Source: Vicinamibacterales bacterium
GTDB taxonomy: Bacteria; Acidobacteriota; Vicinamibacteria; Vicinamibacterales; JAKQTR01
Assembly: GCA_025456345.1 (NCBI GenBank)
Contig: JALOKU010000027.1
Span: forward strand, 1 to 64,000
Reading direction: 5' to 3'
Length of the DNA stretch: 64,000 bases
A program made the translations under genes and the position numbers. Under the pieces are notes generated by a model. It saw nothing but the letters and a program-made list of their open reading frames with translations. It made no database searches and was not told the origin of the DNA. Shown here one piece after another: positions 32,890 through 50,679 of this stretch. Numbering within the stretch: position 1 is the stretch's first letter; each line of letters begins with the position of its first letter.

Positions 32890-33237
32890 TCAGCGCACCA
32901 GACACGGGCGCGTGCTGTCGAACGTCCAGCCCGGCACGAGAAACTGCATCGAGACGGCATCGTTGCGCGCACCGAGGCCGTGCTGCTCGACGAGCGCGTG
33001 CGCCTTCGCGATCGCCTCCATGCCGGGTTCAGTGCCGAGGCCGGGCCGATCGGGCACGGTGAGGCGGCGGTCCACAATCCGGAGCGGCTCCCTCGTCAGC
33101 CGCTGTCCCTCCTGCCAGATTCAGTGCGTATCGATGGCGGTGATTCGCCCGGGGGCCGCCGCGGCGGCGTGGTTCACCGTCGTTGCCTCGAACAGGAGCC
33201 AGCCAACCAGGTAACGGGCGGGCAGAGAGGCGCTCAT
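32890..33237 (-). pseudogene. gudD: Glucarate dehydratase remnant with in-frame TGA
   Basis: The frame from ~33183 to 32890 encodes the C-terminal ~95 residues of a glucarate dehydratase-type enolase. The pieces are HAAAAAPGRITAIDTH, then a TGA (33123-33121) where the family has Trp, then IWQEGQRLTREPLRI, VPDRPGLGTEPG, KAHALVEQHGLGARNDA and MQFLVPGWTFDSTRPCLVR. The rest of the enzyme (~350 residues with its metal site) is absent. An ATG at 33237 overlaps the stop of the upstream gene (ATGA) in the same frame, which suggests the original start survived and an internal deletion plus a nonsense mutation killed the gene. It is the last member of the MFS-DapA-Tat protein operon. Confidence 0.88.
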
Positions 33238-34970: not shown

Positions 34971-34971
34971 C

Positions 34972-35913
34972 TCATGCTCCTTCACCGCGATGGAGCCCCA
35001 GCGCCGTGATGTCCGCCCGGAGCGCCTCCAGCCGCCGCTCCACCAGCGCGCGTTCATCCGCGCGGAACCGATGGAACGGCTCGGCCATGAAGTCGTCGCT
35101 CACGCCCAGGCACGAGAGGGCGCACTTGAGGCCCTTGATGACGGCGGACGGATGCCGGCCGATGCGATAGAGGGCTTCGCCCACCCGGATCACCTGCGCG
35201 TGCAACGCGTGCGCGCGTGACAGGTCGCCGGCCCGGCAGGCCTCGAACAGGGCGACGTAGAGCGCGGGAAACAGATTCGCCCCGCCGCAGACACCGCCGT
35301 GCCCACCGGCCAGCAGCGCGTCCATCAGATGCTCCTCAGGTCCCACCAGCAGCGACCAGTCCGGGCGCTGCGGCAGCAGCGCGGCCGCGTCGCGGAAGTA
35401 GGCCATGTCGCCGGAACTGTCCTTGAGGCCGACGATGCGCGGCTCGTCCATGGCGGCGCGCACGGTCTCGAGTTCGAAAGCGACCTTGGTGAGCGCCGGC
35501 ATGTTGTAGAGGAACAGCGGCAGCGGCAGCTCGGACACCAGGTGGCGGAGGTACTCCCGCAGCTCGGGCTGGCCGCCAGGCAGGTAGTACGGCGGCGCCG
35601 CCACGACCGCCTGCGCCCCGGCGTCCGCCGCGCACCTGGCGAGGGTCAGCGCCTCGACAAACGCGGTGTCGGTGATGCCCACGAGCACCGGTACGCGCCC
35701 GCGGACCTGACGGCAGACGCGCTCGACGAGCTCGCGCCGCAGACGGTAGCTGAGACTGGGGCCTTCACCCGTCGTCCCGAGCACGAACAGCCCGCTCACG
35801 CCGCCAGCGAGCACGCGCTCGACGAGTCGCTCGAGGCCGGCGGCGTCGAGCTCATCCCGGCCCCGCATCGGGCTGATCATCGGGGGCACGATGCCGGTGA
35901 GCGGCCTGTTCAT
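34972..35913 (-). CDS. DapA-family aldolase/dehydratase
   Basis: This 313-residue TIM-barrel Schiff-base enzyme belongs to the dihydrodipicolinate synthase/N-acetylneuraminate lyase superfamily. The visible landmarks are GVSGLFVLGTTGEGPSLS (substrate carboxylate loop), PLFLYNMPALTK with the catalytic Tyr, and IVGLKDSSGDMAYF with the Schiff-base Lys. Beside a glucarate dehydratase remnant and a MFS transporter, a role as 5-keto-4-deoxyglucarate dehydratase or a 2-keto-3-deoxy sugar acid aldolase is more likely than lysine synthesis. The ATG overlaps the MFS stop by four bases (ATGA). Confidence 0.9.
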   Translation of the reverse strand: MNRPLTGIVPPMISPMRGRDELDAAGLERLVERVLAGGVSGLFVLGTTGEGPSLSYRLRRELVERVCRQVRGRVPVLVGITDTAFVEALTLARCAADAGAQAVVAAPPYYLPGGQPELREYLRHLVSELPLPLFLYNMPALTKVAFELETVRAAMDEPRIVGLKDSSGDMAYFRDAAALLPQRPDWSLLVGPEEHLMDALLAGGHGGVCGGANLFPALYVALFEACRAGDLSRAHALHAQVIRVGEALYRIGRHPSAVIKGLKCALSCLGVSDDFMAEPFHRFRADERALVERRLEALRADITALGLHRGEGA

Positions 35914-37244
35914 CGAGTCTGCTCCCGCCGTCGCTGCCGGGCGAACACCAGCATGGCCGCAACCACCAGGGCCGCCGCGACGAGGTAGATGATGCCACCG
36001 AACGCGATGGCATCGCTCATGTTCTCGACCTGCGTCGGTTTGCTGCCGTACTTCGACGTCCAGCCGACAAACAGCGGCCCGAGCGCGCCGCCGCCCCAGC
36101 CGACCGTGTTCATCAGCCCGGCCGCCGTGCCGCGTGCCCGCGGCTCGATGGTATCGAAGAGCGAGGCGAAGATGCCCGAATCGTAGAAGCCCTTGCAGGC
36201 GCCGAAGGCGGTCATCGCCAGGATGAGGGTGGTCGTGTCGGCGGTTCTTCCGACGAGGACCACGAACGCGGCGCCCGCGAGCAGGCCCAGCGCCTGCACG
36301 AGCATCCGGCCGCCGGCCATCCGGCGCGTGAGGCGGTCGGCGAGCGCGCCCGCCAGCGGTACGCTCGCCGCGCTCGCCAGGTGAATGAAGACCGTGCCAG
36401 ACAAGCCGGCCGAGGCCAGCGTGAAACCGAACTTGTCGACCAGGAACGTGGGCGTCCACGTGAGGAAGATGGTTGCCACGAAGTTCGCGCCGACAAACGC
36501 GAGCATCAGCAGCGGGACGACGGGCGACTGGAAGATGGCCCGCAGCGTCTCGCGCAGCGACAGGGCCTCCGCCGCCGCGCCCTGCGCCGCCGGTGCTCCG
36601 TCCGCCGCGTCCGCGGCGCCGCGCTGGGGCTCGTGCAGGAAGCGGTAGAGCACGACCGCCAGCACCATGCCCAGGCCGCCGAAGAGGAAGAAACCGTATC
36701 GCCATCCCACGTGCTGGGCGAACCATGCGCCGATCCAGCTGCCGAGAATCGTCCCGAGATACACGCTCGACTGGTGAAAAGAGAGCGCGCGCGAGCGGGT
36801 GCGTGAGTCGTGGTAGTCGCTCATGAGCGACATCGAGGCCGGGAAGTAGAACGTCTCGCCGAGTCCCTCGAGCGCCCGCACGGTGATGAAGTGCCAGAGC
36901 TTCGAAGACCAGCCGGTCGTGACCGTCACGAAGCTCCAGAACAGGCAGCCGCCCAGGATGAGGTCCTTGCGGCGGAACCGGTCGCAGATGAACCCGGCGG
37001 CCGGCGCGCCAAACGCATAGACCCACATGAAAGCGGAGCCGATGAGCCCGAGCTGGACGGTGTCGAAGCCGAACTCCTGCTTCAGCGTCGGGAAGACGGC
37101 GAAAATGGCCTGGCGGTCTGCGTAGTTGAAGAAGCAGACGAACCAGAGCATGAACACCACCCACCACTTGTAACCGCGCGGCACGCCTTTGGCCGGGCCG
37201 TGCGGCGGTTGGGAGGCTGGCGATGTCGGCGGTGTCGACGGCAT
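35910..37244 (-). CDS. MFS transporter, anion:cation symporter-like (sugar-acid type)
   Basis: The protein has 444 residues and 12 predicted spans. The N-terminal span carries CFFNYADRQAIFAVFPTLKQEFG, the pattern of the anion:cation symporter branch that includes glucarate/galactarate GudP-like carriers. Loop 2-3 has FICDRFRRKDLILGG, and the central loop is rich in Ala and Asp. It heads an operon with a DapA-family lyase, a Tat-exported toroid protein and a dead gudD, so it likely imports hexarate or a related acid. It diverges from the second GH29 gene across ~205 bases. Confidence 0.9.
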   Translation of the reverse strand: MPSTPPTSPASQPPHGPAKGVPRGYKWWVVFMLWFVCFFNYADRQAIFAVFPTLKQEFGFDTVQLGLIGSAFMWVYAFGAPAAGFICDRFRRKDLILGGCLFWSFVTVTTGWSSKLWHFITVRALEGLGETFYFPASMSLMSDYHDSRTRSRALSFHQSSVYLGTILGSWIGAWFAQHVGWRYGFFLFGGLGMVLAVVLYRFLHEPQRGAADAADGAPAAQGAAAEALSLRETLRAIFQSPVVPLLMLAFVGANFVATIFLTWTPTFLVDKFGFTLASAGLSGTVFIHLASAASVPLAGALADRLTRRMAGGRMLVQALGLLAGAAFVVLVGRTADTTTLILAMTAFGACKGFYDSGIFASLFDTIEPRARGTAAGLMNTVGWGGGALGPLFVGWTSKYGSKPTQVENMSDAIAFGGIIYLVAAALVVAAMLVFARQRRREQTR

Positions 37245-37449
37245 ATGCGATCACCCTGCGCCTGCTGGCCGCGCCAGCACGTCGGCGCGCCGCGGCTCGA
37301 GCTTCCAGCACGCCGCGGCGCGAACGCTGCATGCTACCTCGCGGGAGCTGTCTTGTGGAATTCCCGAACGGCTATGATGTGCGCATGCGTCGTTCCACAG
37401 GTCTCCCACGGTGCGACAGGCGGCCCACGCCGATCCCTGGAGCGCGGCC

Positions 37450-38817
37450 ATGAACCGCCGGCGTTTTCTGCAGACCGGGCCGGTGCTGCTGGGCGGTGCG
37501 GCCGCGACGGCCGCCGCGCGTGCCCTTCCGGCGGTCGGCGCCCCGCAGACGGCGCGCGAGCCGGCTCGCGACCGCCTCGAACAGGCACCGCGCTTCGGCG
37601 ACGGTCGCGACTGGTGGTTTCAGAAGCGCTTCGGGATGTTCGTGCACTGGGGCCTTTACGCGATCAACGGCTTCCACGAACAGGAGCAGTGGCGCCGCCG
37701 CGTGCCGCGCGAGGAGTACGTCAAGCTGGCCGCGCGGTGGAACCCGACGGCTTTCGACCCTGAGGCGTGGCTCGATCTGATGCAGCAGGCGGGCATGAGC
37801 TACATCTGCCTGACCGCCAAGCACCACGACGGGTTCTGTCTCTGGGACACGAAGCTCACGCGCTTCCACACGATGAACACGCCCTACGGCAAGGACGTCG
37901 TCCGGATCCTCGCCGAGGCTTGCCATCGGCGGCGCATTCCACTCTGCCTCTATTACTCCATCGCGGACTGGAACCATCCGGACTATCCCAACCAGGGACG
38001 TCACCACGAGTTGCCGCCCCAGCCGCAGGATCAGCCGGATCTGCTCAGGTACCTGGAGTTCCTGAAGGCCCAGGTGCGCGAACTGTGCACGAACTACGGC
38101 GAGATCTCGGGGTTCTGGTGGGACATGAACGTGGACAGGCACGTGGACCCGTCGATCAATGCGATGATCCGCCGGCTCCAGCCGAACGCGGTGATCAACG
38201 ATCGCGGGTTCGATCAGGGCGACTTCGGGACGCCGGAGCGCGACGTCGATACGGCGGGCGACGAGACGCTCGTGTTCAGCAAGCGCACCGAGGCCTGTCA
38301 GTCGGTGGGTGTCGAGAGCTGGGGTTACCGGCGGGACGAGAGTTATTACACCGATCGCCATCTGCTCCGCAGCATCGACAAGTACCGCGCGCGGGACGCG
38401 AACTACCTGCTCAACGTCGGACCGATGGCGGACGGCGTGATCCCGGCGGAGTCGGCGTCCATCCTGCGGCGCATCGGCGCCTGGCACCGGTCGGTCGCGG
38501 AGGGGCTTGATGGGGCCGCCCCGGCTTCCGTATTGACGTCGAACCGGAACGTGCTGCTCACGCGGACGGGCAATACGGTGTACGTGCACTGCCATCGCGA
38601 TCCGGTCAGCGACGCGGTGAAACTGAAGCCCCTGGCGCGTCAGCCACGGCGGGCGACGCTCCTCAACACCGGCCGGCCCGTCCGATGCGTCGTGGACATG
38701 GCCCCGAGCGACCACGCCGAACAGGCGGCCTACCTGCGTGTCGTCGAGCTGCCGGCCAACGAGATGTCCAACACGGTGATGGTGATCAGACTCGAGTTCG
38801 AGGGCGAGCCCGGGTGA
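37450..38817 (+). CDS. Tat-exported alpha-L-fucosidase, GH29
   Basis: This 455-residue enzyme starts with a Tat signal (MNRRRFLQTGPVLLGGAAAT). Its GH29 landmarks are WWFQKRFGMFVHWGLYAIN, ICLTAKHHDGFCLWDTK, LYYSIADWNHPDYP, and the predicted nucleophile Asp225 in GFWWDMNVD. VESWGYRRDESYY and YLLNVGPMADG follow. It differs clearly from the GH29 at 9709, which uses a Sec signal, so the two may handle different linkages. ATG 37450 has GGAG ~7 bases upstream. The gene is divergent from the MFS-DapA operon and convergent with the GH78 gene. Confidence 0.93.
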   Translation: MNRRRFLQTGPVLLGGAAATAAARALPAVGAPQTAREPARDRLEQAPRFGDGRDWWFQKRFGMFVHWGLYAINGFHEQEQWRRRVPREEYVKLAARWNPTAFDPEAWLDLMQQAGMSYICLTAKHHDGFCLWDTKLTRFHTMNTPYGKDVVRILAEACHRRRIPLCLYYSIADWNHPDYPNQGRHHELPPQPQDQPDLLRYLEFLKAQVRELCTNYGEISGFWWDMNVDRHVDPSINAMIRRLQPNAVINDRGFDQGDFGTPERDVDTAGDETLVFSKRTEACQSVGVESWGYRRDESYYTDRHLLRSIDKYRARDANYLLNVGPMADGVIPAESASILRRIGAWHRSVAEGLDGAAPASVLTSNRNVLLTRTGNTVYVHCHRDPVSDAVKLKPLARQPRRATLLNTGRPVRCVVDMAPSDHAEQAAYLRVVELPANEMSNTVMVIRLEFEGEPG

Positions 38818-38829
38818 CGGCCGCCCCGA

Positions 38830-40602
38830 TCACCTGACGTCGAGGGTGACGGAGCCGGTCACCTCGTCCTCGAGCAGCCATCGGTTCGCTACGCGCCGGG
38901 CACGGACAGGGGCGCCTCCGCTGAAGACGCCGCGCGAGCCGGCCGGGGCGGGCAACTCCATCTGCGCCGTCATCCCTGGCGGCAGGGTCACCTTCACGCG
39001 GAAGCCCGCTTCATTGGCCCAGGCGATGTGGACCGGCCCGCGCGGCGTCGGGATCGTGCCGGCCGCCCGCGTCAGCGAGCCGGGGATCGGGCGAATCCTG
39101 GCGCGCCGCCAGCCGGGCGCGAGCGGCTGCGCGCCGAGCACGAAGCGGGGGAGGAGGTTGGCCGGCGCCGCCCCCCATGCGTGGTTCCAGTCCTGGTTGG
39201 GCTTGTACTTCTGGTCCCACGCCTCCCACGTGATCGTGGTGCCGCTTTCGACCATGTGCCGCCAGCTTCGGTCGGTCGCCGCCGTGACGAGCGCGAGTGC
39301 CTGTGCGCCATCACCGTGCTCGAAGAGGCCTTCGAGCAGGTACTGCGCCGCGTACACCGAGCAGGGCATCCCGCGGCTGGCCAGCCACGCCGACACGCCG
39401 GCCGCGTGCTCCGCCGGCACCAGGCCGAAGGCGAGCGGGAAGAGGTTGGCATGCACGGACGCGTGGTCCGTGCCCTCACCGTCGCGATACAACCCGCGCA
39501 CGGGGTCGAACAGCGCGCCCTGGAAGGCCGTGCGGGCTGAACGTTCCCGCGTCCGGTACTCCGCTACCTCGGCGTCGCGGCCCAGCGCGGCGGCGAGCGC
39601 CGCCATGTGGGCCAGCGCGCGAAGGTGAAAGGCGTTGACCACGGTGTTGACCGGCGTGAAGACGTACCCGTCGCGCTCGCCGGCCGGCCAGTCGACGATA
39701 TCCTCCTTCGCGCGCTGAGCCTCCGAGCTCGCGAGCAGGCCGTCGGCGCGGGCGCGGTCGAGCAGGAGCTTGGGCTTCAAGGCTTCGTAGCGCGCGGCGA
39801 GCCATTCCCTGTCGCCGGTGTGCATCCAGTCGGCGTGCGCGATGAAGATCATGTGGAACGCCCACTCCGTCGGCCAGGTGGGACGGGCCATCAGGTGGTC
39901 GAACGTGTCACGCGCCATCTGCACGTCGCGATCGGTGGCGTAGTGGCTGAGCTGATTGAGGTAGGCGTCTGCCTCGTAGGGAATCCGCTCACGATCGCCG
40001 TCGACATATACGCCGGCGAAGGTCGTGGCCTTGATGGAGTAGCGGCACAGCTCCCAGATGCGGTCGAGGAGTCCGTCCGACGACGTGAACGCCGCGGCGG
40101 CATCATCCCAGGTGCTCGCGAACGCCGCCTGCCGGCTCAGATGCTCGGGCCGGAGTTCCCCGGGCCACCCCTCGATCTCGACCCAGCGGAACGGCGTCAC
40201 CACGCCCCATTCCGGCGGCGTGAGCACGGCGGCGGGTTGCCTGGTGTTGCGCGCGTCGGGCAGCGGGGCGGCGACGATGGGCGAGCCGCCCGCCAGCGTG
40301 ACGCGCGCCGTCGAATAGCGGACCGAGCCCGGCGGCGCGCGGTTGACCCGGCCGTCGGCGAGCGACTCGCCGAAGTGCACGGTCACGTCGCCGGCCGCGC
40401 CGGCCGGCGGGAGAAGGCGGAGGTTGCCGAAGGCGACCCGGCCGAAATCGACCAGCACCACCCCCGGAGCCGCCGACGAGATGCGCACGGGAGCCTGCGC
40501 CACCAGCGTGACCGGCGCCGCCGCGGCCGCCCCGGCCCCTAACGCGGCGATGCCAATCCAGGCGGCGAGGACGCCACGCGCGACAGGCGACCGGTCAGAC
40601 AT
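38830..40602 (-). CDS. Exported GH78 alpha-L-rhamnosidase-like enzyme
   Basis: The protein has 590 residues and a signal peptide ending near AAAAAP. A beta-sandwich (~40-170) precedes the (alpha/alpha)6 barrel. The catalytic region reads GVYVDGDRERIPYEADAYLNQLSHY, where GH78 carries its essential acidic residues, followed by TITWEAWDQKYKPNQDWNHAWGAAPAN and a C-terminal beta-domain with NEAGFRVKVTLPPG. It should cleave alpha-L-rhamnose or a similar deoxysugar outside the cytosol. Its ATG overlaps the EIIC stop by eight bases, and it is the last gene of the long operon. At 590 residues it is short for GH78. Confidence 0.88.
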   Translation of the reverse strand: MSDRSPVARGVLAAWIGIAALGAGAAAAAPVTLVAQAPVRISSAAPGVVLVDFGRVAFGNLRLLPPAGAAGDVTVHFGESLADGRVNRAPPGSVRYSTARVTLAGGSPIVAAPLPDARNTRQPAAVLTPPEWGVVTPFRWVEIEGWPGELRPEHLSRQAAFASTWDDAAAAFTSSDGLLDRIWELCRYSIKATTFAGVYVDGDRERIPYEADAYLNQLSHYATDRDVQMARDTFDHLMARPTWPTEWAFHMIFIAHADWMHTGDREWLAARYEALKPKLLLDRARADGLLASSEAQRAKEDIVDWPAGERDGYVFTPVNTVVNAFHLRALAHMAALAAALGRDAEVAEYRTRERSARTAFQGALFDPVRGLYRDGEGTDHASVHANLFPLAFGLVPAEHAAGVSAWLASRGMPCSVYAAQYLLEGLFEHGDGAQALALVTAATDRSWRHMVESGTTITWEAWDQKYKPNQDWNHAWGAAPANLLPRFVLGAQPLAPGWRRARIRPIPGSLTRAAGTIPTPRGPVHIAWANEAGFRVKVTLPPGMTAQMELPAPAGSRGVFSGGAPVRARRVANRWLLEDEVTGSVTLDVR

Positions 40603-41848
40603 CGGCCCCTCGCTCGGCGGTGCGTTCGGCGTTCAGCCGCTGGCGTTCGGCGGCCTTGGCGAACGGATAGTAGACAGCCATGGCGATCAGAATCGAAATC
40701 GCGCCCCACACGGCCGCCCTCCAATCGCCGCCCGACACCAGGTAGTGCCCGACGATGGGCGGCGTGGTCCAGGGCACGGCCACGAACGGCTTCTGCATCA
40801 GGCCCCAGCTCATGAGCAGGTACGTGCAGGTGGTGAGCACGAGGGCGGTCACGACGTAGGGAATCATGAAGATCGGGTTCAGCACGATGGGGAACCCGAA
40901 GAAGATGGGCTCGTTGATCCCGAAGATCTGCGTGGGCAGCGAGAGCCGGCTCACCTTGCGGTAGCCGGGCTCCTTCGACCGCAGCATGACGAGCGCCAGG
41001 CCGAGCGTCGCCCCTGTCCCGCCGACGTTCACGAACGTGCTGAAGAACCCGGAGGCCGTCACGTACGGCAACGCCTGGCCCTGCGCCACGGCATCGACAT
41101 TGGCCGCGAGGTACTGCAGGAAGATCGGCGCGACAATCGCGTCCAGCGTGTTGTCGCCGTTGATGCCCACCGACCACAGCAGCGTGACCAGACATGCGTA
41201 GGCGAGGATGCCGGGCAGGGTGTTCAAGGCGAAGACCAGCGGGGTGAACGCGGTCTGCAGCGCCTGGTTGATGTCGACGCCGGCCACGAACCGGATGAGC
41301 CAGAACGCCACGACCAGGAAGACCATCGGGCTCAGCGAGAGGAAGGTGTCGTAGACGACCGCCGGCACGTGGCGGGGCAGCGCGATGACCCAGTTCCGAT
41401 CGGTGAAGCACTTCTGCACCCGCACCGTCACCAGCGCCACGAGGATGGCCGTGAACAGGCCGCGCGACCCCAGGCCGTCCATGGAAAGCGTCTGGTCCTC
41501 GGGCCGGACCTGGATCAGCAGGAACACGAGCGCCGCCATCGAGGCGCTGACGACGGCCTCCTGCTTCAGCCGCGTACCGAGGTCGTACGCGATCGCGAAG
41601 CAGACGAAGACGGCCAGCAACCCGAAAGTGGCGGTGACCGGCAGCTGGAGCAGGGGCAGGTAGGGCGCGACGACCGTGTCCCAACCGGCCACCGGCAGGA
41701 ACGACACCACGAGGAAGAGCCCGCCGATGATGGTCAGCGGCACGATCGACACCATGCCGGCGCGGATGGCGGACAAGTACGTGTTCTCGCTCAGCACGGT
41801 CAGCGGAGGCACGACGTACTTGTTCAGGAAGGCGGTCGCCGACCTCAC
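40595..41848 (-). CDS. PTS EIIC permease, lactose/cellobiose family (no EIIA/EIIB nearby)
   Basis: The protein has 417 residues and about ten spans. It has the lactose/cellobiose-type EIIC hallmarks: the N-terminal AIRAGMVSIVPLTIIGGLF, LLWSVGINGDNTLDAIVAPI, and the conserved FGINEPIFFGFPIVLNPIFMIPY loop with the catalytic Glu-Pro. No EIIA, EIIB, HPr or EI gene is visible in this window. GTG 41848 overlaps the aminotransferase stop (GTGA). It may use phosphotransferase partners encoded elsewhere or work as a simple carrier for the amino sugar or disaccharide handled by the operon. Confidence 0.9.
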   Translation of the reverse strand: MRSATAFLNKYVVPPLTVLSENTYLSAIRAGMVSIVPLTIIGGLFLVVSFLPVAGWDTVVAPYLPLLQLPVTATFGLLAVFVCFAIAYDLGTRLKQEAVVSASMAALVFLLIQVRPEDQTLSMDGLGSRGLFTAILVALVTVRVQKCFTDRNWVIALPRHVPAVVYDTFLSLSPMVFLVVAFWLIRFVAGVDINQALQTAFTPLVFALNTLPGILAYACLVTLLWSVGINGDNTLDAIVAPIFLQYLAANVDAVAQGQALPYVTASGFFSTFVNVGGTGATLGLALVMLRSKEPGYRKVSRLSLPTQIFGINEPIFFGFPIVLNPIFMIPYVVTALVLTTCTYLLMSWGLMQKPFVAVPWTTPPIVGHYLVSGGDWRAAVWGAISILIAMAVYYPFAKAAERQRLNAERTAERGADV

Positions 41849-43113
41849 GCGGGCCCCTTCCGGCGAGTGCCTCGCTTCCGGGACCACTCGGAGAGCGCGG
41901 CCCGGTTTGCGTGGACCTTCTCGAACGCCCGTGCAATGTCGTCCATGTCGGCGCGCCTGCCGAGCAACATCGCCTGCTCGAGCCACACGCCCTGCTCGCG
42001 GCAGATCAGGTCGCTGTTGGGGCACTCCGCGCGGCTGTAGTCCGTCCGCGCCGCGGCCCCGTGCAGATATGGACCGAAGGCCCGCTCACGGAACATCGGC
42101 TGCTGCGGCAGCGAGAACCCGTAGCCGGCCGAGCACGGAATGCCCTCCGCGCGGAGCGCCTCGATGGCCGCGGCCCGCGGCACGCCGAACGCGGCCGCGT
42201 CCAGCCTGAGCATGAAGAGATGGTAGCTGTGCCGCGTGCAGGAGGCGGGGCGCTTCTGCGGATGCAGGCCCGGAAGCGCCGAGAGCCGCGCGGCGAGGTC
42301 GCGGCCGTTGCGGTCGCGGGTGTTCGTCTGCGCCTCGAGCCGATCGAGTTGGGCGTTGAGCACCGCGCCCTGGAACTCGCCGAGGCGGTAGTTGCCGGAG
42401 ACCGTGTGGTGCTCGTACCACACACCGCCCGGCACCCGGCCGCAGTTGTGCAGGGAACGGCAGGCGTCGGCCAGGCGGCGGTCGCTGGTCGTGATGATGC
42501 CGCCCTCGCCGCACGTGAGGTTCTTGCTGGACTGGAACGAGAACGACGCGAGGTGCCCCAGGCTCCCGGCGGGCCGGTCCTTGTACCGCGCCCCGTGGGC
42601 GTGGGCGGCGTCCTCGATGACCACCAGGCTCCGCGTCCGCGCGATGCGCATGATCGCGGCCATGTCCGACGGCTGCCCGGCGAAATGGACGGGAATGACG
42701 GCGCGGGTGCGCGGCGTGAGGGCGGCCTCCACCGCGGCTGGACTCAGATTGAAGGTGTCGAGATCGATGTCGGCGAAGACCGGAATCATGTTCGCCTCCA
42801 CCACCGCCGACGCCGTGGAGAAGAACGTGTACGGGGGCACGATCACCTCGGCCTCGGCGGGCACGCCGGCCGCGATGAGCGCCAGGCGCAGCGAGACGGT
42901 GCCGTTCGAGACGGCGATGCCGTGCCGGCAGCCGTGCATCCCGGCAAAGCGCGACTCGAAGCGCCGCACCTCGTCGCCGTGCAGCCGGCCCCACTGTCCG
43001 CTGCGCAGCGTGCGGAGCAGCCGGGCTTCCTCGGCCTTGCCGAAGACGGGCCACGCCGGGAAGGCCCTGGTCCGCACCGGGCGGCCGCCAAGCAACGCGA
43101 GCGGAGATGTCAT
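41845..43113 (-). CDS. DegT/DnrJ/EryC1/StrS-family PLP aminotransferase
   Basis: This 422-residue fold-type I aminotransferase shows FAGMHGCRHGIAVSNGTVSLRLAL, the PLP-binding Asp in VVIEDAAHAHGARYKDR, the Schiff-base Lys in FSFQSSKNLTCGEGGII, and HNCGRVPGGVWYEHHTVSGNYRLGEFQGAV. Family members aminate keto-sugars, usually nucleotide-linked, or inositols (scyllo-inosose type). Here it is bracketed by an acetyltransferase and an EIIC carrier, so an amino sugar or aminocyclitol is likely. Its ATG overlaps the acetyltransferase stop by four bases. Confidence 0.92.
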   Translation of the reverse strand: MTSPLALLGGRPVRTRAFPAWPVFGKAEEARLLRTLRSGQWGRLHGDEVRRFESRFAGMHGCRHGIAVSNGTVSLRLALIAAGVPAEAEVIVPPYTFFSTASAVVEANMIPVFADIDLDTFNLSPAAVEAALTPRTRAVIPVHFAGQPSDMAAIMRIARTRSLVVIEDAAHAHGARYKDRPAGSLGHLASFSFQSSKNLTCGEGGIITTSDRRLADACRSLHNCGRVPGGVWYEHHTVSGNYRLGEFQGAVLNAQLDRLEAQTNTRDRNGRDLAARLSALPGLHPQKRPASCTRHSYHLFMLRLDAAAFGVPRAAAIEALRAEGIPCSAGYGFSLPQQPMFRERAFGPYLHGAAARTDYSRAECPNSDLICREQGVWLEQAMLLGRRADMDDIARAFEKVHANRAALSEWSRKRGTRRKGPA

Positions 43114-43739
43114 GGGTCGAGCGCCTTGCCCAGGTAGACCACGCCGTCCGTCGCCGAACCCACGCGGATGAGTTCCGTGAAGCCGATCCTGCGGTAGAAC
43201 CCAAGCGCCGGGTCGTTGCGCACGCTCACGCCCAGGTGCACGCCGGGCGACCCGCGCCTCTGCAGCGTGTTCATGACCTGCTCCATCATCTGCCGTCCGA
43301 ACCCGCGGCCTTGCGCCCGCTCGAGCAGGTCGATGTGCATGTGCGAAGGATAGGCCTCATAGGGTTCGGGGCAGTAGTAGTCGGGGTGGTGATACCAGGA
43401 GTGCACCGTCTGTGCGCGCGTCCATGAGGACGGATCGCCTTGCGGCATCGGATGACGGGCGCATAGTTGCGGCCGCCAGTCCGACTCGTAGCGCGAATAG
43501 AAGGCGCGCGAGTCGAACGCGCCGAAGGCATAGCCGCACACGCCATGCCCGTCCTCGAGCATCAGTCCCAGTTCGGGCTCGAAGGCGAGGTAAGGACCGA
43601 CGAAGATCCGGCCCAGGGCGTCCGGGTCGTCCCCGTAGAACGGCTCGCCGTCGGCGCCGTGATCGCCGGTCTTGAGACAGATGTAGTAGGCGGCTGCCTG
43701 ATCGTCCGGCCGCGCGGAGCGAATGGTGAAGGCGCTCAT
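43110..43739 (-). CDS. GNAT acetyltransferase resembling the HAT-like domain of animal O-GlcNAcase
   Basis: This 209-residue single-domain GNAT has an intact acetyl-CoA loop (AQGRGFGRQMMEQVM, 142-156). The whole sequence tracks the C-terminal domain of metazoan O-GlcNAcase: AAAYYICLKTGDHGADG, DPDALGRIFVGPYL, LMLEDGHGVCGYAFGAFDSR, the long insert with SDWRPQL, and SHMHIDLLERAQGRGFG. Human O-GlcNAcase carries a pseudo-acetyltransferase version that lacks a working acetyl-CoA loop; this one retains it. ATG 43739 overlaps the GH84 stop (ATGA), so the two proteins are made together. The acceptor is unknown; a freed hexosamine is a natural candidate. Confidence 0.88.
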   Translation of the reverse strand: MSAFTIRSARPDDQAAAYYICLKTGDHGADGEPFYGDDPDALGRIFVGPYLAFEPELGLMLEDGHGVCGYAFGAFDSRAFYSRYESDWRPQLCARHPMPQGDPSSWTRAQTVHSWYHHPDYYCPEPYEAYPSHMHIDLLERAQGRGFGRQMMEQVMNTLQRRGSPGVHLGVSVRNDPALGFYRRIGFTELIRVGSATDGVVYLGKALDP

Positions 43740-45082
43740 GCGACGGCTCCTGGTGCCGGGCCGGGCGAGGCCACCACGCCGCCGCGATAGGTGCCCGGAC
43801 GATGAAAGTCCGACCGGCATGGCGCGCCCGGGTCGGCTTCCTTGGACCGCACGCAGGCCAGCAGCAGGTCCATCTCCTCCCGCAGTTCCCACGTGCGTCG
43901 GCCGAGCGCGTAGAAGAGCGGGCGGTCGCGCAACTCCGACACGCGCGCGCACACGTCCCGCAGGCGCGCGGCCTGCTCCTTGACGGCGAAGGCGCTGCCC
44001 CACGTCGCCGGCTCCGAAGCCAGCAGGCCTTGCGCCGACGCGATGAGAGACTCGGCCAGAGGACCTTCTTCATACGGGAGGTAGTAGCAGTCTCCAAGCA
44101 GCAGGAGGTCGTCGAGCGAGATGGGAGGGCCCACGGTCTCGAAACGCGGCAGCCACGCGCCCATCGCCTCGAGGTACGCCCGCCGCGCGTCCCAGGGGCC
44201 GTCGCCCCGGACGAACTCGCCGAGTGTGCGCAGCGGCACGTAATTCAGCGGCAGTTCGTTGTTGGGATTGGCCAGGATCCCGGCCACCTCCTGGCGCAAG
44301 GCGCCGGGCCGGCCGGCGTACGGGCCGCAGTAGAAGCGCCGGCCGTCGTAGTCGTTCGCGTGAAGGTTGTCCCAGATGAGCGGCTTGCGCCGGAGGATCT
44401 GCCGCAGTTCACGGACGTGCGCGACGGTGATGTCGCGCGACACGATCTCCGGCCCGGTCCAGCACACGTCGAAGCCGGCATCCAGTTCGCGCCCCACGGT
44501 GTCCAGATAACCCGCGCCGCCGAGCTGCCGGTCCGCCATCCTCCCGCAGTACGGCGTCGGACAGAAGAGGAAGCGCGCGCCGGGCCGCCGCTCCCGGACC
44601 CACCGGAACACGCCGTTCGTCACGTCGCACTGCGCGGAGGCGAATGACGTCCAGCGCGCCGCATCCTCGGCGTGCATGCGATCAGGGATGTCGTCGAAGA
44701 GCAGCGCGAAGTGCTCGCACCCCAGGGCCAGCATCTGCTCGAGGCGTGCGTGAAGGCGGCCCCGATCCGGCTCGCTGCCGAACCGGATGTCGAGACCCGG
44801 ACTGAGCGCATAGATGAACCGCAGGCCGCGCGCGGCGCAGTCTCGAACCGTCGCCGCGAGCGCGTCGGCCTCCTCAGGCGAGTAGGTCTCCCGCCACAGC
44901 GTGCGGTGCTTGAGGTCGTCTTTGGGGGCGTAGAGGTAGGTGTTCAGGCCGAAGTCGGCCATCCAGTCGAACAGCTCGAGCCGTTCTGGCGCGGACCAGG
45001 GCCGGCCGTAGAAGCCCTCGATGGCCCCGGCCAGGAAGGCGCCGTCATGCGCGTCGGCCGCGACGGCTGGTCCGTCAGTCAT
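43736..45082 (-). CDS. GH84 O-GlcNAcase / beta-N-acetylhexosaminidase
   Basis: The protein has 448 residues and no signal peptide, so it is likely cytosolic. GH84 hallmarks begin at once: FLAGAIEGFYGRPWSAPERL, GLNTYLYAPKDDLKHRTLWRE and YALSPGLDIRF. The catalytic Asp pair lies in LLFDDIPDRM (Asp130, Asp131), and LIWDNLHANDYDGRRFYCGPY supplies the binding Asn and Asp. These are the residues used for substrate-assisted hydrolysis of terminal beta-O-GlcNAc. Bacterial relatives are often secreted hyaluronidase-like enzymes; a leaderless form suggests imported HexNAc-saccharides or intracellular targets. Overlapping the acetyltransferase gene, it recreates the two-domain layout of animal O-GlcNAcase as separate genes. 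Confidence 0.95.
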   Translation of the reverse strand: MTDGPAVAADAHDGAFLAGAIEGFYGRPWSAPERLELFDWMADFGLNTYLYAPKDDLKHRTLWRETYSPEEADALAATVRDCAARGLRFIYALSPGLDIRFGSEPDRGRLHARLEQMLALGCEHFALLFDDIPDRMHAEDAARWTSFASAQCDVTNGVFRWVRERRPGARFLFCPTPYCGRMADRQLGGAGYLDTVGRELDAGFDVCWTGPEIVSRDITVAHVRELRQILRRKPLIWDNLHANDYDGRRFYCGPYAGRPGALRQEVAGILANPNNELPLNYVPLRTLGEFVRGDGPWDARRAYLEAMGAWLPRFETVGPPISLDDLLLLGDCYYLPYEEGPLAESLIASAQGLLASEPATWGSAFAVKEQAARLRDVCARVSELRDRPLFYALGRRTWELREEMDLLLACVRSKEADPGAPCRSDFHRPGTYRGGVVASPGPAPGAVA

Positions 45083-45089
45083 GCGCGCA

Positions 45090-46661
45090 TCACTCGCCGA
45101 TCAGGAACTTGTGGTGCCGCCCCATCCAGTACGGCAGCAGGAACGCGCCGCCGTCCGACTCGGAGCGGCCTCCGCGGCCGCCGTCGACCACGAAGGGGTT
45201 GGCGTTCCAGCGCATGACCGGCCGCTCGTCCGGCGGGAGGAGCGTGCGCGCCTCGCGCCTGCCGTGCCGATCGGCGTCGGTGGCCCATTCGATGCCGGTG
45301 CGGTGTGAATTCCTGACGTCCCAGTCGATCAGATCGAGGGGCATCCGGTAGAGCGTCCACACCGCCCCCGGCAGGTCGACGGCGGCGTCGGGACGGCCGG
45401 TCAGGTAGATGAACGTCCAGAGCGGGGACAGTTCGCGCTGCATGTTCTGCCACCAGTCGTCCAGCGCGCGGCGGTACGCCGCGAGCATCGCCGGGTCCCG
45501 CTCGTAGCGGAACACGGCGTAGAAGGGCAGCATGGCCAGCTCCTCGTCGGAGTAGTTCATCTCCACGCGGACGTCGTGCAGGCGCAGGATGAGTGTGGCG
45601 TAGCCCAGGTCGTGCGCGACCTTTCTATATTCCGTCTCGTATCGTCCGTCGCCGGTGATGTGCGCTGCCGTCTTGAGGAAGCTGAGCAACTCGAGCGCGT
45701 TGAGCGCCGAGTCTTCGGGATCCTCTGCGAAGTACTTCGGCGACCACTTGCCCCACGTGGTCGGCTGGCCGTCGACGTCCACGAGGTGGTAGCCGCTCGA
45801 GACGATGTGGTCCATGATGCGGCGGGTCGTGGCGGCGATGCGCGTCTTGAGATCGGCATCGGGAAGCAGGTCGTAGGCGATGCCGAACGCGAACATGTGG
45901 CCGACGATCTCGTCGGAGCTCGTGTCGCCTTTCCAGTAGATCTGCCCGTCGGCGGTCCAATGCCACTCGCCGCTTGCCGGCATGCGGTCGCCCTTGCGGA
46001 TGTACGAGCGGGCGGGGAAGCCGCGGCGCCCGGTGACTTCCTCGAGGAAGAGCAGCGCCTCGACCGCTTTGCGGGCGTTCGCGAGGGAGTCGGGGGAGGA
46101 CGTGACGGCGTAGCGGAAGCACTCCGCCGCGGCGTAGATCGACGTCCACAGGCCGTTGTTGTCGTTGTCGACGTGGCGGCTGGTGGACAGGTCGCCGGGG
46201 ACTTCCAGGAGCGAGTCGCCGAGCATGCCGTAGCGGTCGTGACGCAGCCGCACGTTCTGCTCCATCACCTCCGCCTTCTGCAGGAGCGTCATGGGACGCA
46301 GTTCGATGTGCGACACGCCTGTGCGCGTGCGCACCCAGACGCCGCCCGTCGCGTCGGCGACGATTCGCTGGACGTCGTCATCCGGCAGGTACCGCTTGCC
46401 GGCGAAGTACTGGAGGCGGTCGCGCGGGGGCGCCTTCTCGTCCACCCGCGTCAGCCCCCGGGGACTGCCGGACCAGACCGCGCCGTCGGCCGCGCGGACG
46501 CCGGGCGGCCTGTCTGCCGCCTCGCGGAGGGCTGCCGGGACGGCCGGGTCGCCGGCCTGATAGAAGGTGCGCACCTTCTGCGGGTACGGGGCGAGCCTCA
46601 CGGGCTGCGCCGCGAGAGCGGCGCCGGCCAGGACCGCGGCGCACACGACCACGGCGCGCAC
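45090..46661 (-). CDS. Exported (alpha/alpha)-toroid protein of unknown family
   Basis: The protein has 523 residues; the GTG start is one base after the aldo/keto reductase stop. A signal peptide (AVVVCAAVLAGAALAAQ) leads into a short beta segment resembling regulator-propeller blades (DDVQRIVADATGGVWVRTRTGVSHIEL). A long helical domain follows, with HVDNDNNGLWTSIYAAAECFRYA, WHWTADGQIYWKGDTSSDEIVGHMFAFGIAYDLL and GQPTTWGKWSPKYFA. The paired helices suggest an alpha/alpha barrel like GH or lyase enzymes; Asp, Glu and Trp residues cluster in likely active-site loops. I do not know the family. Its operon suggests a glycan-related role. Confidence 0.78.
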   Translation of the reverse strand: MRAVVVCAAVLAGAALAAQPVRLAPYPQKVRTFYQAGDPAVPAALREAADRPPGVRAADGAVWSGSPRGLTRVDEKAPPRDRLQYFAGKRYLPDDDVQRIVADATGGVWVRTRTGVSHIELRPMTLLQKAEVMEQNVRLRHDRYGMLGDSLLEVPGDLSTSRHVDNDNNGLWTSIYAAAECFRYAVTSSPDSLANARKAVEALLFLEEVTGRRGFPARSYIRKGDRMPASGEWHWTADGQIYWKGDTSSDEIVGHMFAFGIAYDLLPDADLKTRIAATTRRIMDHIVSSGYHLVDVDGQPTTWGKWSPKYFAEDPEDSALNALELLSFLKTAAHITGDGRYETEYRKVAHDLGYATLILRLHDVRVEMNYSDEELAMLPFYAVFRYERDPAMLAAYRRALDDWWQNMQRELSPLWTFIYLTGRPDAAVDLPGAVWTLYRMPLDLIDWDVRNSHRTGIEWATDADRHGRREARTLLPPDERPVMRWNANPFVVDGGRGGRSESDGGAFLLPYWMGRHHKFLIGE

Positions 46662-46662
46662 G

Positions 46663-47646
46663 CTATGCCGTCCAGGTCCCGTCGTCGCGGTGGCCCGTGA
46701 AGAAGCGGGCCATCTCGACCGTGCTGCCGGCGTACTGCCGGCGGAGCCGATCCATGTCGGCGGGGGAGAGCGACGACGCGAACGCCTGCGCCGTCGCGAC
46801 GTTCGCTTCGAGGAACTCGAGCTTCGGCATGCCGCACACCGCCGTCGAGATCGGCAGGCTCCAGGCGTAGCGGAGCAGCGACGCCGCGTCGGCTTTGCCT
46901 GCGCCCAGCAGCTTGTCCTGCCCGGTGACTTTCATCAGGATGACGCCCAGGTTCTTCCGGTTCGCGGCCGGCAGCGCCAGTTCCTCGAAGCGAAGCGCGC
47001 GCGAGGGGTTCATCGCCATCTGCACGCAGTCGAGGTCGTGCCGCTCGATCGCCTTCGCCATCACGGCGCCGTCGCTGTGACTGGTCATCCCAATGAAGCG
47101 CGCCACCTTCTGCTCGCGCAGCTGGTAGAGCGCCTTCAGCGCGCCGTCAGCGGCCTCGATCTTCGCCAGGTCCGCCTCGTCTCCAAGTCCGTGAAGGTGC
47201 AGCAGGTCGACGTGGTCGGTCCGGAGGCGCTTGAGGCTGGCCTCGACTTCCCGCAGGGCGGCATCCCGCGTTCGGGCGCTCGGAGGGACCTTCGTCGCGA
47301 CGAACACGTTGCGGCGCCGCGCCGCCAGAAAACGGCCCACGCGCGTTTCGCTCTCGCCGTTGCCGTAGTCAATCGCCGTATCGAGATAGTTGATACCGAG
47401 GCCAACGGCTCTCTCGATGACCGACGTCGCCTGCTCGGCGGGGAACTGCAGGAAGCGGCTGCCGCAGCCCATCGCGAGAATCGACACGCTGACGCCTGTG
47501 CGGCCCAGCGTGCGGTGCGGCATCAGCGTGGCGGCCTCCGCCGGGCCGGACGCCGCGACGAGCGACGGGATGGCCGCGACGGCACCCGCCATGGCCCCGC
47601 TCTTCTCCAGGAACTCGCGCCGGCTGATTCGCTCGTGCATCGACAT
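46663..47646 (-). CDS. Tat-exported aldo/keto reductase
   Basis: The protein has 327 residues. The N-terminus ISRREFLEKSGAMAGAVAAIPSL is a twin-arginine signal. The aldo/keto reductase barrel follows, with the catalytic tetrad in INYLDTAIDYGNGESE (Asp, Tyr), VFVATKV (Lys) and DLLHLHGLGDE (His). Bound NADP should be carried folded through the Tat system, which explains the signal. It presumably oxidises or reduces a sugar or cyclitol in the periplasm. It sits between the isomerase-like gene and the unknown toroid gene, all spaced by a few to ~30 bases. Confidence 0.93.
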   Translation of the reverse strand: MSMHERISRREFLEKSGAMAGAVAAIPSLVAASGPAEAATLMPHRTLGRTGVSVSILAMGCGSRFLQFPAEQATSVIERAVGLGINYLDTAIDYGNGESETRVGRFLAARRRNVFVATKVPPSARTRDAALREVEASLKRLRTDHVDLLHLHGLGDEADLAKIEAADGALKALYQLREQKVARFIGMTSHSDGAVMAKAIERHDLDCVQMAMNPSRALRFEELALPAANRKNLGVILMKVTGQDKLLGAGKADAASLLRYAWSLPISTAVCGMPKLEFLEANVATAQAFASSLSPADMDRLRRQYAGSTVEMARFFTGHRDDGTWTA

Positions 47647-47673
47647 GATTCGCTCCTGTGACGCAGCCTGCGC

Positions 47674-48606
47674 CTACGAGGCCTTGACGCCCGCGGCAGA
47701 CAAGTAATCGGCCATCGTCTTCGCGTAGTGCGGGAACGCGACCTCCGGCTCCTCGATCTCCGGATGCCACTTCTTCTCCCACTCGAAGGAGTACAGGCCC
47801 TTGTAGCCTGCCGCCGCCAGCACCTTGACCTGCTCCTTCACGGGCACCTCGCCCGCGCCGAGCAGGACGTAACGGCGGTCGGCCCCTTCCGGCTTCGAGT
47901 CCTTGAGGTGCGTATGGCGCGTCCACTTCCCGATTCTGGCGAACGTGTCGGCGGGTTTTTCCCCGGCGGCGACGAAGGAATGGTGCGCGTCCCACAGGAG
48001 TGCAAACTGCGGCGACCCGACGCTGGTCAGGATGTTCTCGAGGTCGGCCGAGCGCGTGAAGTCGCCGTGCGATTCGATCAGCACGGTGACGCCCGCCGGC
48101 TTCCCGTAGTCCGCCATCGCCCGGAAGCCCTCGATGACGCGCTTCATCACCTCGTCTTTCGGTTCGCCCTCGGGGAACTTGTCGCCGAACATCCGGACGT
48201 ACTTCACGCCCATCGCCTGCGCGAGGTCAATGAAGCGCCGGCCCTCGTCGAACTGCTGCGCCCGGACCGCCGCGTCCTTCTCGTGCATGCGTGCCGACGC
48301 CCCGAGATCGCTCACGGCGATGCCGAGGGCGGCGAGGTCGCGCTTCGCGTCTGCGAGGCGTGTGCCGGTGAACTCCGGGACCTTCGGCAGGTCCATCTCG
48401 CCGGCGATGCCACGGAGCTCGATCGCCACGAAGCCGCCCTTGTCGGCGTTCGCCAGGATCGTTTTCCAGCTCCAGGCGGGGCAGCCGAGCGTCGAGAAGG
48501 CGATCGGGTAGCGCGCCGGGCGCGACTGGGCACGAAGCAGGGCGGGCGCGGTTGCGAGTCCCGCACCGAGCGTGGCGAGAAAGGAGCGGCGGTTCACGGC
48601 GGTCAT
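47674..48606 (-). CDS. Tat-exported sugar isomerase/epimerase-like TIM barrel
   Basis: The protein has 310 residues. A Tat signal (MTAVNRRSFLATLGAGLATA) precedes an AP-endonuclease-2/xylose-isomerase-like barrel. Metal-site motifs are visible: the Glu in GFVAIELRGI, VTVLIESHGDFT, FALLWDAHHS with the His/Asp, HTHLKDSK, and the terminal GLYSFEWEKKWHP with the last Glu. Enzymes of this fold isomerise or epimerise ketoses or inosoles, or cleave C-C bonds. ATG 48606 follows GGGAGG, which is partly inside the 3' arm of a perfect hairpin. It is the first gene of the long operon. Confidence 0.92.
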   Translation of the reverse strand: MTAVNRRSFLATLGAGLATAPALLRAQSRPARYPIAFSTLGCPAWSWKTILANADKGGFVAIELRGIAGEMDLPKVPEFTGTRLADAKRDLAALGIAVSDLGASARMHEKDAAVRAQQFDEGRRFIDLAQAMGVKYVRMFGDKFPEGEPKDEVMKRVIEGFRAMADYGKPAGVTVLIESHGDFTRSADLENILTSVGSPQFALLWDAHHSFVAAGEKPADTFARIGKWTRHTHLKDSKPEGADRRYVLLGAGEVPVKEQVKVLAAAGYKGLYSFEWEKKWHPEIEEPEVAFPHYAKTMADYLSAAGVKAS

Positions 48607-48612
48607 CGAGCC

Positions 48613-48642
48613 TCCCGGGGCAAAGGGTTCCCCGGGATTATA
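48613..48642 (-). promoter_or_regulatory. -10 box and leader hairpin overlapping the Shine-Dalgarno of the long operon
   Basis: On the minus strand TATAAT (48642-48637) is followed at once by TCCCGGGG, a 9-base loop, and CCCCGGGA (48637-48613), a perfect 8-bp stem. The 3' arm contributes GGGA to the GGGAGG that serves ATG 48606. If transcribed, the stem would hide half of the ribosome binding site. No convincing -35 is visible. Regulation is inference. Confidence 0.5.
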
Positions 48643-48666
48643 CCGCCGCCCCTTCGGGTGGCCGCC

Positions 48667-49365
48667 TCAGACGACGGGCGCGTCGAGGCCGATGCGCACG
48701 AAGGCCCGCGCGCCAGGAATGCGCGCTTCGAGCCCGGCGGCCAGCGACTCGAGCATACCGTCGAGATGCCTGCAGATATTCGCGTGCCTGCCGTCTGTCA
48801 GCCGAGCCAACGCCGCCCGGGAGCGGTCGATCCCGACGAGCGCGATCTTGGCGGAGCCCTCGGCGTCGTCCCGTTCGCCGGGGATGCCGCGGTCGGCTCG
48901 TGCCGCCGCCACCAGCGCCCGGGTCGCCCGCATCGCGAGGAACTGGTGATACCACGCGAGAACGTCCTGCGGGCCCGGCGACCGCCCGAAGGTGCCCGAG
49001 GCCGGGGGCCTCCAGCCCGCCCTTGTCAGCAGGAACCCTGCGCCGACGGCGTACTGGCTCGCAAGCAAGCACAGCCCTTCGTCGGCGGGCACGGGCTGGT
49101 ACTCGCCCTTGGGGTCTCCGGCCATCAACGCGTCAAGACCGGGCGTGGTCTCGCCGGCTGCGGCCGCCACCTCGCGCGTGAAGGCGATGCTATCGTCCGC
49201 GTCGAACGCCGAGTCGCGCCGGCGCCGCGCCTCCCATGCCTGCCGGACCCGATGGGACGTGCATCGGGCCGTGACACGGCAGAACTCGCACCAGTCGTCG
49301 CAGTACTTGTAGACCCCAGGTATGTCCTCCACTCGCCGGGCCGCGGTTCCTGTGTGTACGCTCAC
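48667..49365 (-). CDS. Unknown protein with N-terminal four-cysteine cluster
   Basis: The protein has 232 residues. GTG 49365 is chosen because GAGGAGGG lies six bases before it. Residues ~21-34 carry YKYCDDWCEFCRVTARC, four Cys spaced C-x3-C-x2-C-x5-C, followed by TSHRVRQAWEARRRR. The rest is helical with AWYHQFLAMRATRAL and LVGIDRSRAALARL. The cysteines could bind zinc or an iron-sulfur cluster. No signal peptide is seen. The family is not recognised. It is divergent from the small exported protein at 49721. Confidence 0.7.
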   Translation of the reverse strand: MSVHTGTAARRVEDIPGVYKYCDDWCEFCRVTARCTSHRVRQAWEARRRRDSAFDADDSIAFTREVAAAAGETTPGLDALMAGDPKGEYQPVPADEGLCLLASQYAVGAGFLLTRAGWRPPASGTFGRSPGPQDVLAWYHQFLAMRATRALVAAARADRGIPGERDDAEGSAKIALVGIDRSRAALARLTDGRHANICRHLDGMLESLAAGLEARIPGARAFVRIGLDAPVV

Positions 49366-50320: not shown

Positions 50321-50625
50321 TCAGTTGCTCCCGGTGCGAGGCGCCACGGCCGCTTCCCCGGCTGGAATCAGCGCGGCCGCCAGGTCGGCGTTGAAGCGGC
50401 ACTGTTCGGTCTTGAAGTCCTCGACCAGCCAAAGCCAGCGGCGCCGCGCGGTTTGGCGCAATGGGCGCTCGCCCTCGCCGCTCCAGTAGTCTACGATCTT
50501 CTTGACGTCGTCTGGCGGCGTGACGGTCTGGAGGCACCGCGGGTTGCCGGGCTTCGTGTCGAGCCGCCAGCGAACCGGTGGACCGGCAGGTCCCTGAACA
50601 CGATCCCCTCATGCGGGCCCCTCAC
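50321..50625 (-). pseudogene. Probable frameshifted small gene
   Basis: Two adjacent frames have strong G/C third-position bias and read as one protein if a single base is restored near 50570. The first, from GTG 50625, gives RGPHEGIVFRDLPVHRF. The second continues RWRLDTKPGNPRCLQTVTPP, DDVKKIVDYWSGEGERP and RRRWLWLVEDFKTEQCRF to the stop at 50321. The second frame has no normal start of its own before residue ~50. Either the gene is broken, or it uses a start I cannot identify. The family is not recognised. It overlaps no other gene and precedes the Cys-rich protein by two bases. Confidence 0.4.
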
Positions 50626-50679
50626 GCGGGCCTTGGCGCCATACGGAATCGGGGCGGTGGCGAGAGGTATGATTCACCC

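Follow-up and report, generated by a model that had tools for sequence, protein, structure and literature searches.

A conserved GH84–GNAT–(DegT)–EIIC gene cassette in a Vicinamibacterales genome and its possible role in amino-sugar salvage

A row of eight tightly packed genes in the genome of Vicinamibacterales bacterium (assembly GCA_025456345.1) raises the question of whether such a row constitutes a single pathway. The row lies within positions 1 to 64,000 of contig JALOKU010000027.1, the whole stretch that was analysed, hereafter the window. It encodes, in this order on the minus strand, a TIM-barrel isomerase-like protein (TIM), an aldo/keto reductase (AKR), a protein with an (alpha/alpha)6 toroid (toroid), a GH84 glycoside hydrolase, a GNAT acetyltransferase, a DegT aminotransferase, an EIIC carrier and a GH78 alpha-L-rhamnosidase. 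A preliminary description of this DNA had joined all eight in one pathway, with sugar redox enzymes acting outside the cell, import of a piece containing N-acetylhexosamine (HexNAc) and its hydrolysis inside. The comparison with other genomes indicated that the conserved unit is GH84, GNAT, DegT in some loci, and EIIC, sometimes together with the secreted toroid, and not the set of eight genes.

Genome contigs were scanned with the GH84 protein of the window. The 80 loci obtained from other genomes, by label mostly Verrucomicrobiota with a small number of Acidobacteria and Planctomycetes, were searched with 14 window proteins (tblastn, 1e-8). As the loci were picked by GH84 similarity, GH84 is present in them by construction. 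Four of the 80 rows (L024, L039, L077 and L079), with more than 95% identity, were dropped, leaving 76 distinct loci; L045, L060 and L078 coincide with contigs of genomes G035, G188 and G187, respectively, of the class survey given below and were retained in the locus counts. Of the 62 dereplicated loci with room for it, 58 had GNAT no more than 1.5 kb downstream of GH84. Where at least 4 kb lay beyond GNAT (37 dereplicated loci), EIIC was present downstream in 28 and DegT in 17, that is, both genes in 11 loci, EIIC only in 17, DegT only in 6 and neither in 3. The pairwise identity matrices of the four core genes were correlated (r 0.53–0.83; 0 of 2000 permutations as high), a result which shared ancestry alone could yield. 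That the core cassette is a real unit is almost certain. As a separate observation, the GH84 frame of L071 and L079 (8918–11368 in both) carries about 360 extra N-terminal residues with no Pfam match, has no GNAT downstream and may have a wrong start.

Relatives of the window GH78 or TIM were found in none of the 80 GH84 loci. A single locus, L040, had an AKR relative, which is 43% identical and overlaps the start of GH84. TIM, the redox genes and GH78 are therefore considered local additions. In L080 the gene directly upstream of GH84 encodes a TIM barrel that also belongs to PF01261. Close relatives of the toroid occur in six loci, directly upstream of GH84 in five and directly after EIIC in L098. 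The absence of GH78 and TIM relatives rules out the eight-gene pathway as a conserved unit, and the expectation that the whole set would be kept in relatives was not borne out. From the earlier proposal, the tie of an O-GlcNAcase-type GH84 to a histone acetyltransferase (HAT)-like GNAT, DegT and EIIC stands, while the inclusion of the periplasmic redox/isomerase genes and GH78 in the same pathway does not; import of a HexNAc-containing piece remains the likeliest theme.

In an independent survey of 193 genomes of the host's class, GNAT was present in seven, with a close GH84 in six of them and EIIC in six of them, and no close GH84 or EIIC was found among the 193 outside these seven. A further GH84 match, in G088, was merely 32% identical. 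GNAT, GH84 and EIIC occurred together in five genomes; G035 has GNAT and GH84, and its contig stops inside DegT. These genomes are not independent events, because four of the cassette genomes belong to one genus. In a tree of three joined proteins the window was placed among verrucomicrobial rows (96/94), apart from the acidobacterial L011 and L014. This grouping with Verrucomicrobiota, and not with acidobacteria of the same class, suggests that the window acquired its cassette by horizontal transfer, although wrong binning of the contig may be the alternative explanation.

Matches to solved structures tie the pair that heads the cassette to O-GlcNAcase. The best Protein Data Bank (PDB) match of GH84 was human O-GlcNAcase (OGA) 9ba8, with 316.7 bits and a second stretch (residues 318–436) on the stalk, ahead of OgOGA (297.9 bits), NagJ (128.2 bits) and BT_4395 (121.6 bits). 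The catalytic Asp-Asp pair, D130-D131, was kept in 84 of 84 aligned rows. The GH84 family acts on beta-linked N-acetylglucosamine (GlcNAc), and we infer that this protein is an active beta-N-acetylglucosaminidase of the O-GlcNAcase type. The best PDB matches of GNAT were 3zj0 (residues 4–193, E 3.6e-41) and 4bmh (residues 5–205, E 1.2e-38), which we take to be OgpAT and SsAT, as the structure table labels both merely "acetyltransferase"; they were followed by the HAT-like domains of animal OGA, 6r45 (E 5.8e-25) and 5m7r (E 1.8e-22). The acetyl-CoA loop of GNAT, at residues 141–146, fits the pattern R/Q-x-x-G-x-G, with R141 and G144 each kept in 69 of 72 rows and G146 in all 72. Judged by sequence, GH84 and GNAT are of OGA-type kinship with intact catalytic motifs. 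Their gene order mirrors the domain order of animal O-GlcNAcase, a point missed by the preliminary description.

The pairing of GH84 with an acetyltransferase is known already. In Oceanicola granulosus (OgOGA-OgpAT; Rao et al. 2013, PMC3814719) GH84 is likewise followed directly by an OGA-HAT-like acetyltransferase gene, in the domain order of animal OGA; in the available text of that paper OgpAT binds acetyl-CoA and the function of the pair is left open. The row of the window runs on into DegT and an orphan EIIC, whereas the same text describes a pair only, and the arrangement of the window recurs in Verrucomicrobiota, Acidobacteriota and Planctomycetota. No link of a GH84-acetyltransferase pair to an orphan EIIC or to DegT was found in the open-licence literature, nor any paper treating GH84 together with EIIC in a pertinent way; papers on GH84 in Verrucomicrobia in that literature concerned the gut and mucin. 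Animal OGA (MGEA5) shares the order of GH84, stalk and GNAT fold and the cytosolic location, but it is one fused protein while the bacterial system consists of two genes, and the bacterial hosts lack O-GlcNAc transferase (OGT; PF13844 in 0 of 7 cassette genomes, with controls detected). According to the accessible parts of PMC3814719 and PMC12494797, the animal HAT-like domain does not bind acetyl-CoA, in contrast to the intact bacterial loop, and its role was called unknown in 2025 (PMC12494797).

The carrier of the cassette stands without its usual partners. The sole PDB match of EIIC was 3qnq (E 6.3e-64), itself a lactose/cellobiose-class EIIC, and EIIC is the only PF02378 gene of the genome, which is 90.8% complete. 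Lactose/cellobiose EIIB (PF02302) and EIIA (PF02255), the two partner families searched for, gave 0 matches in this genome. In neither the cassette loci nor the window did a search for EIIA/EIIB relatives find any, while it did detect the positive controls from E. coli and plasmids. EIIA and/or EIIB were annotated alongside seven of eight plasmid EIIC controls, and neither alongside the eighth. EIIC is an orphan without lactose/cellobiose EIIA/EIIB partners, which the preliminary description had not noted. The diacetylchitobiose phosphotransferase system (PTS) of E. coli (chbBCARFG; 3qnq EIIC) has an EIIC of the same family and the same chitobiose theme; the cassette differs from it in having no EIIA/EIIB, in using GH84 and not a 6-phospho-hydrolase, and in encoding an acetyltransferase where that system has the ChbG deacetylase. 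Searching phages with EIIC yielded matches of an ordinary PTS-like kind.

Two positions of EIIC, His 250 and Glu 334 in 3qnq numbering, presumably have a role in phosphoryl transfer. The Glu was conserved in 47 of 47 EIIC rows, of which L060 and L078 duplicate L011 and L014. At position 250 the window and 41 of the 47 rows have Asn, and the six rows with His correspond to four acidobacterial genomes. Nine EIIC controls had His (7), Gln (1) and Asn (1) at this position. The Gln control is a plasmid Lac EIIC encoded beside its PTS partners, and the Asn control is a Cetobacterium plasmid EIIC (L105 2977–4269) with no lactose-type EIIA/EIIB annotated alongside. The EIIC match is in two pieces about 360 bases apart in L034 (12094–13710), inside one open frame (an insertion), and in L076 (7902–9467).

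A role of the cassette in the metabolism of amino sugars is probable, in view of the activity of the GH84 family on beta-GlcNAc and of the genes found with the cassette variants and with related acetyltransferases. In the marine Verrucomicrobia L084, L089 and L096 (9998–15303), GH84 and GNAT are followed by genes of a NagK-like kinase, of a SIS sugar isomerase and of a sodium symporter that replaces EIIC; L086 has the same variant up to the NagK-like kinase, where the contig ends. A YdjC/ChbG-like deacetylase is located upstream in L037, and NagA was over the cut-off in six of the seven cassette genomes. GNAT relatives outside the cassette were viewed in eight plasmid contexts. In Falsirhodobacter the run is BadF kinase-ROK-DMT-GNAT-nagB-amidohydrolase, and in Duffyella sugar ABC transporter-GNAT-ROK-BadF-type kinase. 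The GNAT contexts of two rhizobial plasmids include genes for a ROK regulator and an ABC transporter as well as a Gfo/Idh/MocA gene, and one Deinococcus context has a PIG-L deacetylase and nagA nearby.

We put at about even chances that the core GH84-GNAT-(DegT)-EIIC is an amino-sugar salvage cassette in which EIIC imports, GNAT acetylates and GH84 cleaves. EIIC, with no PTS phosphorylation, would bring into the cell a disaccharide containing GlcNAc or glucosamine (GlcN), either of the chitobiose type or derived from N-glycan chitobiose cores. In the cytosol GNAT would N-acetylate free amino groups of the imported sugar with acetyl-CoA. GH84 would then cleave the beta-GlcNAc bond, and the products would enter the NagA route. 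Acetylation is placed before cleavage because the substrate-assisted catalysis of GH84 requires a 2-acetamido group, and this acetylate-then-cut step is proposed tentatively. A similar logic operates in heparan sulfate breakdown, where acetylation in the HGSNAT/NAGLU step makes terminal glucosamine cleavable for a substrate-assisted N-acetylglucosaminidase; those proteins are unrelated, and the acetyltransferase is a membrane protein of the lysosome. GlmA of Clostridium acetobutylicum, a GNAT likened here by activity only, has been proposed to acetylate GlcN and GlcN-glycosides. The local redox genes, which the host genome would have added upstream of the core, as it would have added the rhamnosidase downstream, may make a keto or amino sugar for DegT to act on. 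The substrate, the direction of transport, the acceptor of GNAT and the role of DegT are as we infer them.

Several observations weigh against this scheme. DegT is 67–77% identical in most loci having it, yet it is optional and has no clear place in salvage. In G040 (L138 7771–12600) the GNAT, DegT, EIIC and toroid genes overlap or abut and the search of the genome for GH84 was without match, so GH84 is separable and dispensable. Four of the eight GNAT contexts have little or no amino-sugar link (none in L111, L113 and L116, weak in L119). The genome of the window has EI and HPr genes, which lie side by side, and, as the EIIA/EIIB search covered PF02255 and PF02302, phosphorylation by a non-cognate partner is possible. 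Asn at 3qnq position 250 as proof of non-PTS function is weakened by the His of the four acidobacterial genomes and by the Gln of the PTS-partnered control.

An alternative that is unlikely, and that fares best among the others, is that DegT aminates a keto-sugar or cyclitol, either imported or oxidised, whose new amino group GNAT then acetylates, GH84 being a side activity; the AKR and TIM, both of the twin-arginine translocation (Tat) type, would supply the keto-sugar. It is modelled on the DegT/N-acetyltransferase pairs of nucleotide-sugar synthesis. DegT lies directly after GNAT in 17 of the 37 loci, with an ATGA overlap in the window, G040 carries GNAT-DegT-EIIC in the absence of GH84, and the nearest solved DegT proteins in the PDB, AHBA synthase (1b9i/1b9h) and scyllo-inosose aminotransferases, use non-nucleotide keto substrates. 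However, another 17 of the 37 loci have GNAT-EIIC with no DegT nearby, the pairing of GNAT with GH84 is far steadier than with DegT, and the neighbours annotated for proteobacterial GNAT relatives include nagB or sugar kinase genes but no DegT. The lysine that binds pyridoxal phosphate was kept in 28 of 28 DegT rows. An aminocyclitol or aminoglycoside substrate, prompted by the DegT relatives, was set aside, since most glycosides of this kind have alpha linkages and GH84 acts on beta linkages.

Quite improbable is that GNAT acetylates proteins or serves as a sensor, responding to the GlcNAc released by GH84. The model would be fungal Ngs1 (PMC5063960), which also combines a GlcNAc-related hydrolase-like domain with a GNAT and in which, in the available text, GlcNAc binding switches on the GNAT domain; neighbouring GH84 and GNAT genes mirror such a fused protein. 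In the same text the hydrolase part of Ngs1 is GH3-like and acts as a sensor, and its GNAT acetylates histones. By contrast, GH84 keeps the catalytic Asp pair in every row, which marks it as an enzyme rather than a dead sensor, and some sugar catabolic operons that lack GH84 contain GNAT relatives. It is very improbable that EIIC still phosphorylates its sugar through EI, HPr and EIIA/EIIB of another family encoded elsewhere: the adjacent EI and HPr genes and the invariant Glu 334 agree with it, whereas PF02302 and PF02255 are absent from the genome and from the surroundings of the cassette, and EIIA and/or EIIB are annotated next to every plasmid EIIC control but one. Removal of protein O-GlcNAc by the GH84-GNAT pair has hardly any likelihood, although GH84 is nearest in the PDB to human OGA, stalk included, and Thermobaculum has OGT and OGA according to the accessible part of PMC4683255, since the cassette is steadily linked to a sugar carrier and the absence of OGT from all seven cassette genomes counts out protein O-GlcNAc cycling.

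The secreted toroid, which accompanies some cassettes and is also found next to EIIC in L138, was modelled as two propeller repeats followed by an (alpha/alpha)6 toroid (pLDDT 77.5, pTM 0.83). Its profile search gave matches to propeller repeats only, and 12 of 14 relatives had a match to Reg_prop (two-component regulator propeller repeat). Against known structures, the best Foldseek match was GH9 CelD (E 1.9e-4, but TM 0.35) and the best VIA match GH76 (Z 17.2, root-mean-square deviation 4.2, 305 aligned, flat ranking); the ranking was no clearer when the toroid part alone was compared. As to a family among GH9, GH76 and AGE-type proteins, the general toroid fold was all that emerged from two predicted models and three structure comparisons.

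The features of the row are detailed in Table 1. The packing of the genes and the family labels of the preliminary description were confirmed, the latter by Pfam/TIGR profiles except for the toroid. Neighbouring genes overlap or are separated by 1–27 bases: 27 between TIM and AKR, 1 between AKR and toroid, and 7 between toroid and GH84. The junctions GH84/GNAT (43736–43739) and GNAT/DegT (43110–43113) are ATGA overlaps, that of DegT/EIIC is a GTGA overlap, the start codon of EIIC being GTG at 41848, and EIIC and GH78 overlap by 8 bases. The earlier Tat, Sec and cytosolic calls also held, with RR motifs on TIM and AKR (the latter with a TIGR01409 match) and Sec-like leaders on the toroid and GH78; no leader peptide was seen in the translations of GH84, GNAT or DegT. 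A TATAAT box, read from the sequence by consensus only, lies about 35 bases 5' of the first ATG of the row. A two-hexamer scan of 38500–49000 gave no sigma-70-type promoter, neither inside the row nor upstream.

Table 1. Features of the eight-gene row of the window and the evidence for each of them.
Feature	Position	Strand	Evidence
Tat-type TIM-barrel isomerase-like protein, local addition	47674..48606	-	PF01261 E 4.1e-32
Tat-type aldo/keto reductase (AKR), local addition	46663..47646	-	PF00248 E 1.3e-26; TIGR01409
Secreted toroid protein, two propeller-like repeats and (alpha/alpha)6 toroid	45090..46661	-	Structure model; window copy without Pfam match
GH84, O-GlcNAcase type, cytosolic, OGA-like stalk (residues ~318-436)	43736..45082	-	PF07555 E 3.2e-74, 250.4 bits (cut-off 25)
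GNAT acetyltransferase, OGA HAT-like type, acetyl-CoA loop RAQGRG intact	43110..43739	-	PF00583 E 4.6e-8
DegT/DnrJ/EryC1/StrS aminotransferase	41845..43113	-	PF01041 E 1e-96, 324.7 bits
Orphan lactose/cellobiose/chitobiose-type EIIC carrier	40595..41848	-	PF02378 E 1.8e-43; TIGR00410 298.5 bits (cut-off 236)
Secreted GH78-type alpha-L-rhamnosidase, local addition	38830..40602	-	PF17389 E 8.5e-57, 193.4 bits (cut-off 24.5); PF17390 and PF05592 over cut-off
Candidate promoter region with TATAAT box	48607..48660	-	Read from sequence; consensus only

Other genes for glycan use are located around the row. Three genes of the GH92 alpha-mannosidase type were observed, two in the window (50578–53028 and 60015–62462) and one in L018 (5264–7180), and a GH29 gene lies at 37411–38817 in the window; in L076 a GH92 gene follows EIIC. 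The GH92, GH29 and related genes of the window look like a glycoprotein-glycan region, which would suit N-glycan cores. At 33234–37244 of the window, the gene of an MFS carrier is in one row with those of a DHDPS/N-acetylneuraminate-lyase-like aldolase and of a Tat-type protein that has no Pfam match; this row may represent a second pathway for sugar acids. A DUF6786 protein (519 bits) is found at 31564–32832 in the same carbohydrate-rich stretch.

Regarding the origin of animal OGA, the cassette suggests that the puzzling second part of the human protein descends from a gene of amino-sugar metabolism. The fuller proposal, that both halves of animal OGA descend from a bacterial amino-sugar salvage cassette in which GNAT is an active glucosaminide N-acetyltransferase preparing the sugar for GH84 and EIIC is a plain transporter outside the PTS, is possible but doubtful. 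If it is true, the human pseudo-HAT domain would be the remnant of an enzyme acting on sugar, not on histones, and the cassette gives a testable ancestral role for this domain. The orphan EIIC is a natural test of whether EIIC proteins work without phosphorylation. With the pair tied to a sugar carrier, and relatives of GNAT found by nagB and sugar kinases, the matter becomes a simple enzyme question, namely whether GNAT acetylates glucosamine-containing sugars.

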